Part shown: positions 23,056 through 28,124 of the stretch, piece by piece | Position numbering within the stretch: position 1 is the first letter of the stretch | How the letters are laid out: each line of letters begins with the position of its first letter | From: Halalkalirubrum salinum | GTDB taxonomy: Archaea > Halobacteriota > Halobacteria > Halobacteriales > Haloferacaceae | Assembly (NCBI RefSeq): GCF_005543295.1 | Contig: NZ_SRSG01000059.1 | Coordinates: 1 to 64,000, forward strand | Direction of reading: 5' to 3' | DNA length: 64,000 bases | Program-made: the position numbers and the translations under genes | Notes under the pieces: model-generated | The model's input: only the letters and a program-made list of their open reading frames with translations | What the model was told of the DNA's origin: nothing | The model's database searches: none

Positions 23056-24897
23056 TCACGTCGTTTTCCAGGACAGAGATACCTCGACCTCCTCGGCAAG
23101 CAGCTCTGCGACGTGACAGGTCCGCTCGCCGGCTTCGACGATTCGTTCGAGGACGCTAGTTTCGACCGCATCAATACCACCCAGTTCGACCTCAATTTCG
23201 ATCGATTCCACGGAGCCTTCCTCGGGAGCACTCGTCACCGACACGTCGATCGACTCGAAGGTGATGTCCCGCATGTCTGCCTGTATCCCGATGCTCGCGG
23301 AGAGGCACGCTGCGAGGGCACCGGTGAAGTAATCCACTGGCGTTGGGTCTGCGCCGCCGCCGAATGACGGGCTCACATCGTATGGCCACTCGTATCCTCC
23401 CGCAGTGATCGTCCCAGAGAGATCCCTCGATAGCTGTGCGGTCACGTGGCGGTTCGGAAGCGGTTGGGCCGCGCTATCGCCCGTCTTGTTTGGGATGTCC
23501 CGCGGGGTGACGCCTGCAAGGAGCGGCCATGGATTTTGTATGTTGTCGACGAGTGATCCAAGGAAGCGTGCAGCGTCCGCACCGTCGACGATTCGGTGAT
23601 CGAACGAGAGATCGAGCGGTAGCACCCGCTTGACGACCACGTCCCCGTCGACCGCCACTGGCCGCTCGGTCATAGCATTGACGCCCAAGATCGCGATCTG
23701 CGGTGGATTGATTATCGGATCGAACGACTCGACACCGAGCAGCCCGAGGTTTGACACGGTAAACGTCCCGCCGGTAAGATCGTCCATCGTGTACTCCCCT
23801 GAGAGTGTCTTCTCGGTGACCCGTTGCCGCTTGGCGGCGAGTTCTGCGATCGACATCGAGTCGACTCCCCGGATCACAGGCGCAACGAGGCCATCATCGA
23901 CATCGATCGCAATCGCGATGTTTCGCTCGCCGTAGATGCGGTGCACGTCGTTTTCGAACGTGCCATTGAATTCTGGGTGTTCACCCAGTGCAGCAGATAT
24001 CGTCGTAAGGAGCACGTCAACCACTGAAATATCCTCGCCAGTGACAGCGCTCGATGCGGCTGCCGCGTCGACGAGCGGATCGGCAATCGCGGTCATGTGT
24101 TCGGTGACGTGGACCGCGTTTCGGTAGCTCTCGCCCAGTCGCGAGCTGATTGTCCGGCGCATCCCATCGAGCGGTCGCTCGGCTAGTATGTCCCGTCGAT
24201 CGGTGTCGTCGAGTTCGCTCGCCTCGTCGCCGCCTGTTTGGCTGTCAGCCGCCGCATACGCCTCAATGTCTGCCTCCGTGATCGCCCCGTCAGGTCCTGA
24301 ACCAGAGATTCCGGCGGGATCGACGCCAAGTTCATCCGCGCGTTTTTTCGCCCGCGGAGAGATTCGGACTGGTTCCTGGCTAGCAGTCGTCTCTGTAGCC
24401 GCCTCAACGTCGGCTTCAGTGATTGCACCACCCGGCCCAGTGCCCTCGACCGATTCGAGAGATACACCCAGCTCGTCGGCTCGCCGCTTCGCCCGCGGAG
24501 ACGCCCGCACAGTGGCAGAATCAGTGGTTGATGCGTCCGCCTGGGATTCAGGGTCGTTCTGACTCACGTCACCGGTTTGGCCCGCTGGCTCATCTTCAAC
24601 CTGATCGCCAGAGGATCCGTCAGTATCGATCGACGCGAGTAGTTCCGTAATATCCGCCTCAGGATCGGCCACGATCCCCATCGGATCGCCCGGTGGGGCG
24701 TCCTCGCCGACATCAAGAAATACCTCCCTGAGTACCCCGTCTTCCCGAGCGTCAACCGAAGCGGAAGTCTTCTCAGATTCGATCTCGGCGATCGGTTCGC
24801 CCTCGGAGACGGCTTCGTCTTCATCGACGTACCACTCGACCACGGTCCCGCTATCCATCTCCAAGCCGAGTTTCGGAATCTTGACGATGTATGCCAT
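23056..24897 (-). CDS. Lipoyl E2 acyltransferase fused to an OsmC-like domain
   Basis: A 613-residue multidomain protein. The lipoyl domain is residues 1-80, with the lipoyl lysine K43 in ESEKTS. Two nearly repeated peripheral-subunit-binding domains lie at about 130-165 and 177-213. The catalytic acyltransferase domain is about 235-465, with the active-site HxxxDG as H434/D438. The C-terminal 130 residues (about 483-613) read as an OsmC/Ohr-type domain: TGALAACLSASIG with C531 and ERTCHVAELL with C594. These are the only two cysteines in the protein. The E2 part serves the convergent acoAB E1, whose operon ends 13 bp away. OsmC/Ohr proteins reduce organic hydroperoxides and can use dihydrolipoyl groups as reductant, which makes the fusion meaningful. 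A minus-strand TATA (ATCTATATTG, about 24921-24930) precedes the ATG. No E3 gene is nearby. Confidence 0.85.
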   Translation of the reverse strand: MAYIVKIPKLGLEMDSGTVVEWYVDEDEAVSEGEPIAEIESEKTSASVDAREDGVLREVFLDVGEDAPPGDPMGIVADPEADITELLASIDTDGSSGDQVEDEPAGQTGDVSQNDPESQADASTTDSATVRASPRAKRRADELGVSLESVEGTGPGGAITEADVEAATETTASQEPVRISPRAKKRADELGVDPAGISGSGPDGAITEADIEAYAAADSQTGGDEASELDDTDRRDILAERPLDGMRRTISSRLGESYRNAVHVTEHMTAIADPLVDAAAASSAVTGEDISVVDVLLTTISAALGEHPEFNGTFENDVHRIYGERNIAIAIDVDDGLVAPVIRGVDSMSIAELAAKRQRVTEKTLSGEYTMDDLTGGTFTVSNLGLLGVESFDPIINPPQIAILGVNAMTERPVAVDGDVVVKRVLPLDLSFDHRIVDGADAARFLGSLVDNIQNPWPLLAGVTPRDIPNKTGDSAAQPLPNRHVTAQLSRDLSGTITAGGYEWPYDVSPSFGGGADPTPVDYFTGALAACLSASIGIQADMRDITFESIDVSVTSAPEEGSVESIEIEVELGGIDAVETSVLERIVEAGERTCHVAELLAEEVEVSLSWKTT

Positions 24898-26319: not shown

Positions 26320-26526
26320 TTATCGTTCTATCGTGCGTCGATCACGACGCTCTTGTATTGCATCGCGAAGTGCATCTGCCTCGTCGTCACTCAAAATCCC
26401 TGCCAGTTCGAGTAGCGATCGCTCGGCAGTCAATCGGAGAATAACCGCAGAAAAGGTTTCATCAGGAGATCGACGAGCATCAAGACGTTCGTATGCTTCC
26501 TCAGATATCTCGATTCGTTTCGACAT
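26320..26526 (-). CDS. VapB-type antitoxin, orphaned by an IS insertion
   Basis: A 68-residue protein (SKRIEISEEAYERLDARRS) of the archaeal antitoxin family that pairs with PIN-domain VapC toxins (DUF217-like). It has a DNA-binding N-terminus and a charged C-terminal toxin-binding tail. No toxin gene follows. Its ATG (26524-26526) lies inside the left 8-bp target duplication of the IS, 5 bp from the element's end. Before insertion this ATG stood 8 bp after the prf1 stop, so the gene was probably co-transcribed with prf1. It may now be silent or driven from the IS. Confidence 0.7.
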   Translation of the reverse strand: MSKRIEISEEAYERLDARRSPDETFSAVILRLTAERSLLELAGILSDDEADALRDAIQERRDRRTIER

Positions 26527-26530
26527 GAGA
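26523..26530. repeat. Left target-site duplication ACATGAGA
   Basis: Identical to 28117-28124 on the other side of the mobile element. A perfect 8-bp duplication indicates a fairly recent insertion; 8 bp is the size known for the ISH1 subgroup of IS5. Confidence 0.88.
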
Positions 26531-26606
26531 GGCTCTGTTGAAGTCCTTCAGCGTTGACATTGAACAGAGCCAAAATTATATGTATTGACAGAATTCAACT
26601 TTCCAT

Positions 26607-27221
26607 ATGAATAAGAGAATCCCCGTGTCGGTATTTTTGGCTACTCTATTATATCAGTTTATTGATGCTGGTGCTGAACTGTTTTTACCGTTCTATGATC
26701 GGGGCGGAATAGTTGCACTACTTTTGTTCTGGTTGATCCCGGGAGGAACCGCGTTCATTCTTGGATATAGGGAGACTTGGCAACAGGCGATGGATAGTCA
26801 AAGACGCAAACAAGTGTATGTCTCAACCGTATTTGGCGCAGTTGCCGGTCAATTCTTGGGTCTCGTGGTGCTGCTTCCGACACCAGCCTTACCGGATATG
26901 ACGCTTATCGGGGCCATAATCTTGGCGGGGATTACTGGTATGTTTGTATTGATCGCAGTAGGTGCAGGGGTTATGCTCGTCTATGCTGCTAATGGGAATG
27001 ATGAATTCGTGACCTATCGTCAATCACTGATCTGTAGCGTACCATTCCTATTAATCGGATTCATATATCTGTTTATTACATTGAGTGATTTGTCCAGTCC
27101 CTATATCTCTGGAAATGATACGGTTATCTTCACTCTCGCAGGCATCTGGCTCCTGATATATGCACGAACCCTCAAACAAAACAATGATGATGGCAATGAA
27201 GGAAAACCTTCCACGGCCTAA
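26607..27221 (+). CDS. Passenger integral membrane protein within the IS
   Basis: A 204-residue protein with about six hydrophobic segments and a polar C-terminal tail (KQNNDDGNEG). No family was recognised. It is much less acidic than normal haloarchaeal membrane proteins, and AT-rich codon use (many ATA, TTA-type codons) differs from the surrounding genes. A TATA-like AATTATAT is centred about 29 bp before the ATG and lies just inside the IS left end, so the gene carries its own promoter. Lying between the inverted repeats, it should move with the element. It converges on the transposase gene with a 21-bp gap. Confidence 0.6.
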   Translation: MNKRIPVSVFLATLLYQFIDAGAELFLPFYDRGGIVALLLFWLIPGGTAFILGYRETWQQAMDSQRRKQVYVSTVFGAVAGQFLGLVVLLPTPALPDMTLIGAIILAGITGMFVLIAVGAGVMLVYAANGNDEFVTYRQSLICSVPFLLIGFIYLFITLSDLSSPYISGNDTVIFTLAGIWLLIYARTLKQNNDDGNEGKPSTA

Positions 27222-27242
27222 TTACTCCATCTATACTGGTTT

Positions 27243-28064
27243 TTAGAGAGTGCGGTCAAGATTGTGGACGATGCAGGCAAGAGCGAGTTCACGAAACTGC
27301 TTCCACCAGTGTCGTGAACGGACGAATGCACCGGATTTTCGCTTGATACGTGAGTTCACTGTCTCGCTCTGGCTCCGTTGACCGTAGAGTTCAGTATCCA
27401 ACCGGGCGTTCCACGCTTTCTGCAGTGATGAGAACTCACGGTGTTTGATCAAAGGACGAATCAAATTTTCACGGGCCATCTCCCGAATTTGCTGATCGTC
27501 ATATCCCTTGTCTCCAAGCAGAACTTCGACTTCAGATGCGTTGCGGTTGATGAGCGAAGGTGCGATCTGCGTATCGTGTTTACGGGTCGTTGTAATGTGG
27601 AGATCGAGGATAGCGTTTGCTCTGGTATCGACTAAGAGAGTGACCTTCAGCTGCTGAATCGTCAACTTCGCCCGTTTTGTGTAGTGCTTCGAGGCGTGGC
27701 TACGGTCAAAGCCCGAGGCGTCGATCCCCGCAACACCGTTAGTCGGGAGCAGTGAAACAGAGAGATTGAGAAGCACTCGCCAGACGGCCATATCAAGTCT
27801 GTCGAACGCCTTGCAGAGTGTAGACGGCGCAGGGAGTTCAGTAAGGTTGATTGCACTCCGTATGCGGGGCATCTCGATGAGTTCGTCGAGAAGTGTTCGA
27901 TAGGTCGTGTTCTTCCGAACTTTGAGACACAGGAGTACGATGTGCTGATGAAGCGTGTAGCGTTGTTTCGAGAATTTTGAGGAGTATCGTGAGACTGCTC
28001 GCTGGGCTAAATGAAATGCTTGCTCGACAAAGCGGAGTAACTGCGATTTCGGGAGGGTCTGCAT
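27243..28064 (-). CDS. IS5-family DDE transposase
   Basis: A 273-residue, apparently intact transposase. Catalytic residues appear as D115 (GIDASGFD), D185 (VLLGDKGYD) and E234 (SQSETVNSRIKRKSG), the IS5-type DDE pattern with the usual YREK-like C-terminal segment replaced by ETVNSRIKRK. It starts 35 bp inside the right terminal repeat. It contains no frameshift, so the element may be active. The target duplication size suggests the ISH1 subgroup. Confidence 0.9.
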   Translation of the reverse strand: MQTLPKSQLLRFVEQAFHLAQRAVSRYSSKFSKQRYTLHQHIVLLCLKVRKNTTYRTLLDELIEMPRIRSAINLTELPAPSTLCKAFDRLDMAVWRVLLNLSVSLLPTNGVAGIDASGFDRSHASKHYTKRAKLTIQQLKVTLLVDTRANAILDLHITTTRKHDTQIAPSLINRNASEVEVLLGDKGYDDQQIREMARENLIRPLIKHREFSSLQKAWNARLDTELYGQRSQSETVNSRIKRKSGAFVRSRHWWKQFRELALACIVHNLDRTL

Positions 28065-28116
28065 CCACTCACACTATCGACTGAATCTGTAACTCTCCAA
28101 GGATTTCAACAGAGCC

Positions 28117-28124
28117 ACATGAGA
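28117..28124. repeat. Right target-site duplication ACATGAGA
   Basis: Matches 26523-26530 exactly. It lies 5 bp before the prf1 stop codon on the opposite strand and contains the former antitoxin ATG position (28118-28120). Confidence 0.88.

Follow-up and report, generated by a model that had tools for sequence, protein, structure and literature searches.

Introduction

Transporter insertion sequences (ISs) are usually described as IS derivatives that happen to bear passengers, and among the known IS families the IS1595-type elements include some members that bear varied passenger genes. Reviews define the transporter IS (tIS) as a single IS that has ends and a transposase of its own and bears passenger genes unrelated to transposition, a description that the element reported here shares (PMC9330008). 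In Halorubrum lacusprofundi, the passenger gene Hlac_3088 has been described with the transposase Hlac_3078 (PMC10544981). Our literature search, with ISfinder and subscription reviews outside its scope, did not turn up any haloarchaeal IS5 clade described as having a cargo slot throughout.

In this study, we followed up an earlier note on a 64,000-nucleotide stretch of DNA from Halalkalirubrum salinum (hereafter the window), which had proposed, from the sequence alone, a cargo-bearing element of the IS5 type. The joint explanation that we favor, with a probability of roughly 80%, is that the 1586-bp unit represents a complete IS5-family tIS that has been active recently, and that it comes from a clade of elements built around a cargo slot.

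Results

Boundaries, genes and insertion of the element

The 1586-bp IS5-family element spans positions 26531–28116 of the window and carries two intact genes between defined ends and target duplications. Its left terminal inverted repeat (GGCTCTGTTGAAGTCCTT, 26531–26548, + strand), whose motif recurs in other clade members, matches the right repeat (28099–28116, − strand) at 17 of 18 positions, as the earlier note had reported, and the perfect 8-bp direct repeats ACATGAGA that it had described lie at 26523–26530 and 28117–28124, a length that presumably fits the ISH1 subgroup of the IS5 family. The repeat recurs as a second copy facing inward (TTGAACAGAGCC), which completes a near-palindrome of 41 bp, the left-end module (26531–26571, + strand); in other clade members this module measures approximately 60 bp, and the left end of the window element departs from the clade consensus past its first ~25 bp.

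The two enclosed genes, both with intact open reading frames (ORFs), are convergent, tail to tail, with the passenger gene (26607–27221, + strand) encoding a 204-aa multi-helix membrane protein (P0001), and the transposase gene (27243–28064, − strand) encoding a 273-aa IS5-family DDE transposase. The latter scores 219.7 bits against NF033579 transpos_IS5_2 (5.5e-65; curated cut-off 140) and also matches DDE_Tnp_1 (1.2e-16), which, together with the repeats and the 8-bp duplication, places the element in the IS5 family. The passenger has no significant match in Pfam or NCBIfam, and its structure prediction (AlphaFold2 on two sequences) reached a mean pLDDT of 44. It is AT-rich, as had been claimed, with a GC content of 45.0%, compared with 51.7% for the transposase gene and 60.5% for the window. 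The passenger had also been credited with its own promoter; a TATA-like box, TTATAT (26576–26581, + strand), does lie about 28 bp before its ATG, a spacing that fits haloarchaeal leaderless transcripts, and the promoter function read from it is putative.

In a genome of the same genus (G001) we found the exact empty site, with one ACATGAGA and joined flanks identical at 1146 of 1196 bases; the membrane gene is absent there, contrary to the occurrence apart from IS ends that the earlier note had named as telling against its own reading. Natrinema limicola JCM 13563 also carries a complete 1586-bp unit, 98.6% identical, at a site unrelated to this one, thus supplying the further full copy for which the earlier note had proposed a search; no matching target duplication was found at that site. 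Differences between the two units are unevenly distributed, with 20 in positions 1–690 and 2 in positions 691–1586 (p = 7e-6), a contrast which suggests a mosaic ancestry.

Since N. limicola has the complete unit at a different site, the passenger moves with the element, which is a tIS: a gene unrelated to transposition, and not itself a transposase, lies within the IS ends and duplications and is shared as one unit by unrelated sites in two genomes, one with an exact empty counterpart. The proposed cargo-bearing IS5-type element is therefore in agreement with the ends, the duplication, the empty site and the second full unit alike. The window left end, being unlike the clade consensus past ~25 bp, could instead be taken for a solitary second repeat that mimics an IS end, with an ordinary IS having come to lie beside a resident gene by chance; we give this arrangement virtually no credence, as it is at odds with the perfect 8-bp duplication and the recurrence of this 1586-bp unit at a second locus, and is refuted by the exact empty site in G001. 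A composite transposon was also considered and rejected, there being one transposase only and no two complete flanking IS copies; within the window, the end motif (up to three mismatches) was found only at the two element ends.

The element sits directly upstream of a solitary VapB-type antitoxin gene (PF02697; 26320–26526, − strand), whose start codon falls within the left duplication and which has been cut off from its original upstream DNA by the element. Elsewhere in the window, a 613-aa protein (23056–24897, − strand) combines lipoyl, E3-binding and 2-oxoacid dehydrogenase acyltransferase domains with a C-terminal OsmC domain, a fusion that is unusual.

A cargo slot in every resolved member of the clade

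DNA matches to the element were present in 116 of 197 related haloarchaeal genomes, and nearly all of them span the transposase half only. At these loci the two ends are 1.2–4 kb apart, are flanked by a perfect 8-bp duplication and enclose differing DNA. The earlier note had suggested looking for shorter versions without the passenger; the resolved copies hold other DNA in the slot, and none is free of cargo. In our census, a copy was counted if its left repeat had no more than three mismatches and its duplication no more than one; 38 of 78 copies passed, while duplications swapped between elements matched in 5 of 6157 cases. Eight further copies brought the resolved set, with both ends and a duplication (at most one mismatch), to 46 of the approximately 100 related copies fetched from haloarchaea; about half of the clade copies lack a resolvable left end or matching duplication, their ends being unresolved or recombined. 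The slot, measured from the left end to the transposase stop, is 320–3095 bp long in all 46 resolved copies, and no cargo-free member was found among them. A clade-wide slot with swapped cargo is an extension of the single passenger-bearing IS that had been described earlier.

Most slots hold one ORF that covers much of their length, and the cargo differs between most lineages. Pfam matches include Redoxin, TauE, GNAT, an Antibiotic_NAT fragment, Pyr_redox_2 with Peripla_BP_2, PAS/HisKA kinases, HTH_10/BAT, DUF4870 (twice), TrkA_C, a formate/nitrite transporter, HD_4, TehB/methyltransferase, SnoaL, RibD_C (RibD-like), DUF1801 and an archaeal pilin, and ten other cargo proteins, mostly short membrane proteins and lipoproteins, have no Pfam match; no single function explains the slot. 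Nor is the cargo always a gene, as some slots hold no good ORF. A 1193-bp clade member (L122–L126, L162, L165) has a 320-bp slot with no ORF of at least 60 aa; G021 carries at least five copies, and the element recurs in G143 and in G104, where contig 1 holds one such resolved member. The slot is possibly a cargo remnant kept as a spacer. The genome of the window itself carries a second, decayed clade member (L002, G000:C12:24121-27953) of 1827 bp, with a duplication matching at 7 of 8 positions and a slot containing fragments of an aminoglycoside 3-N-acetyltransferase gene.

Sister transposases, at 44–49% aa identity, belong to ordinary haloarchaeal IS5 elements of 919–940 bp (L132–L141, located with a similar end-finder). 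These resemble the clade in their terminal repeat, GGCTCTG(T/G)TGAATCG, their 8-bp duplications and their gene order, but differ in that only 30–41 bp separate the left end from the transposase stop, leaving no cargo. In a maximum-likelihood tree, 48 cargo-bearing transposases are split from the cargo-free ones by a branch with 100/100 support, the sister sample being small (eight transposases, two rows with long branches).

Relatives of the passenger

Among 392 genomes of the order, relatives of the passenger were found at 96%, 65%, 63% and 55% aa identity, the first of which appears to be the copy in the N. limicola element. The 55% relative lies on a plasmid of Natribaculum luteum, the only relative found among the plasmids searched, next to a transposase that is 94% identical in DNA, with the left end present; the viral contigs searched held no relative. 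Around the 63% and 65% relatives the IS ends are gone, and 9–24 C-terminal codons of the transposase are kept in the same relative position, so that these homologues (in G249 and G021) stand beside transposase remnants and are still intact after decay of the IS. The earlier note had proposed looking for the passenger next to other transposases, and every relative above 50% identity does adjoin this transposase type or its C-terminal remnant. With dN/dS ratios of 0.20–0.37 among five homologues, the passenger is under purifying selection.

That constant linkage, as well as the frequency of membrane proteins among the cargo, could mean that the 204-aa protein is not cargo but serves the element itself as an accessory factor, regulating transposition or assisting it. 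We consider this improbable, because redoxin, TauE or kinase genes, all wholly different, travel with close relatives of the transposase, and because the 1193-bp form, which lacks a sizeable ORF, spreads nonetheless. As relatives move without this passenger, the membrane protein is most likely a cargo gene, either beneficial to the host or neutral, and not a transposition factor.

The same data bear on what the slot is for. The absence of a convincing ORF from some slots (L020 and, in the 1193-bp element, the 320-bp slot) and of a common theme from the cargo functions would suit a neutral spacer, arising from sloppy choice of ends, in which the cargo ORFs confer no benefit and are mostly decaying. 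This is a possibility that we take seriously but judge unlikely, given that one ORF fills much of most slots, and that the P0001 homologues combine the low dN/dS ratios with survival as intact genes in decayed elements.

Unrelated cargo on near-identical backbones

The clearest comparison is that of L072 with L073, whose hosts belong to different families; their transposase genes are 99.77% identical in DNA and their left 60 bp are 100% identical, yet their cargo is unrelated. L073 is a fusion of two tandem cargo units with a left-end remnant between them, and each unit has a close relative that occurs separately elsewhere. A second left end lies inside the slots of L099 and L060, and L017 and L053 share their cargo but sit at two sites whose duplications differ. 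As judged from such comparisons, the cargo turns over faster than the transposase, so that the backbone is conserved while its cargo can be exchanged.

The 8-bp duplications of L051 and L052, a pair of copies in opposite orientation in G182, are reciprocally exchanged; this points to an inversion between them and is the trace of inter-copy recombination. The L038 slot contains two inward-facing right-end repeats; the left end, which is 161 bp away from one of them, looks as though a small non-autonomous copy had supplied it.

Two processes may underlie the turnover of cargo. The transposase could pair its own right end with a left end lying further away, in a neighboring or decayed copy, and thereby capture the DNA between; and one cargo may be swapped for another when copies recombine homologously via the left-end module and the transposase gene. 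Taken together, the L072/L073 pair, the internal left ends, the mosaic divergence and the duplication exchange in G182 support both capture from a distant left end and recombinational exchange, as processes that we infer from these patterns. When an element subsequently decays, a useful cargo gene may remain under selection.

A native chromosomal source was identified for none of the cargos; for L073 the best matches were other units, one of which retained 14 bp of left-end sequence from the element, and for L061 only matches of ~70% were found.

Because the cargo sits between fixed modules, and 17-bp imperfect inverted repeats flank it in L072/L073 and in L014, we also considered that it might be a discrete cassette, entering through a dedicated recombination site of an integron-like kind or through nested inverted repeats. 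Such a mechanism is very improbable in our estimation: the examined slots contain no integrase gene, and across 38 elements the inner inverted repeats have a median of 7.0, compared with 6.5 in mismatched pairs. Nested inverted repeats as cargo boundaries were rejected on that comparison, as was an integron cassette for the window element, which also lacks an integrase.

Discussion

Beyond the tIS in the window, the broader proposal would be that of a haloarchaea-wide IS5 clade with an obligate cargo slot, which always bears additional DNA, mostly one gene, swaps its cargo through recombination between copies and the use of distant left ends, and leaves genes behind on decay, thus acting as a miniature system for gene capture and delivery; the odds on this larger picture seem to us evenly poised. 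The clade provides a natural experiment in the acquisition, exchange and delivery of genes by an IS, as well as a simple route of gene transfer in haloarchaea. It also raises a testable question, namely why this lineage needs or tolerates a gap of at least 300 bp from left end to transposase gene, compared with ~40 bp in its sister group.

With regard to described systems, the Hlac_3088 case resembles the window element in being a haloarchaeal transposon with a surface-protein passenger, and differs in that the paper concerns one gene, not a family-wide slot, and the transposon is at most a candidate member of the present clade (PMC10544981). The IS1595-type elements belong to another transposase family, and are set beside the window element by description. 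The tIS is the class to which the element conforms, with the difference that here the passenger is not an occasional derivative: a slot is present in every resolved member, its cargo is quickly exchanged, and the clade as a whole appears never to be without cargo, near-identical backbones bearing unrelated genes.
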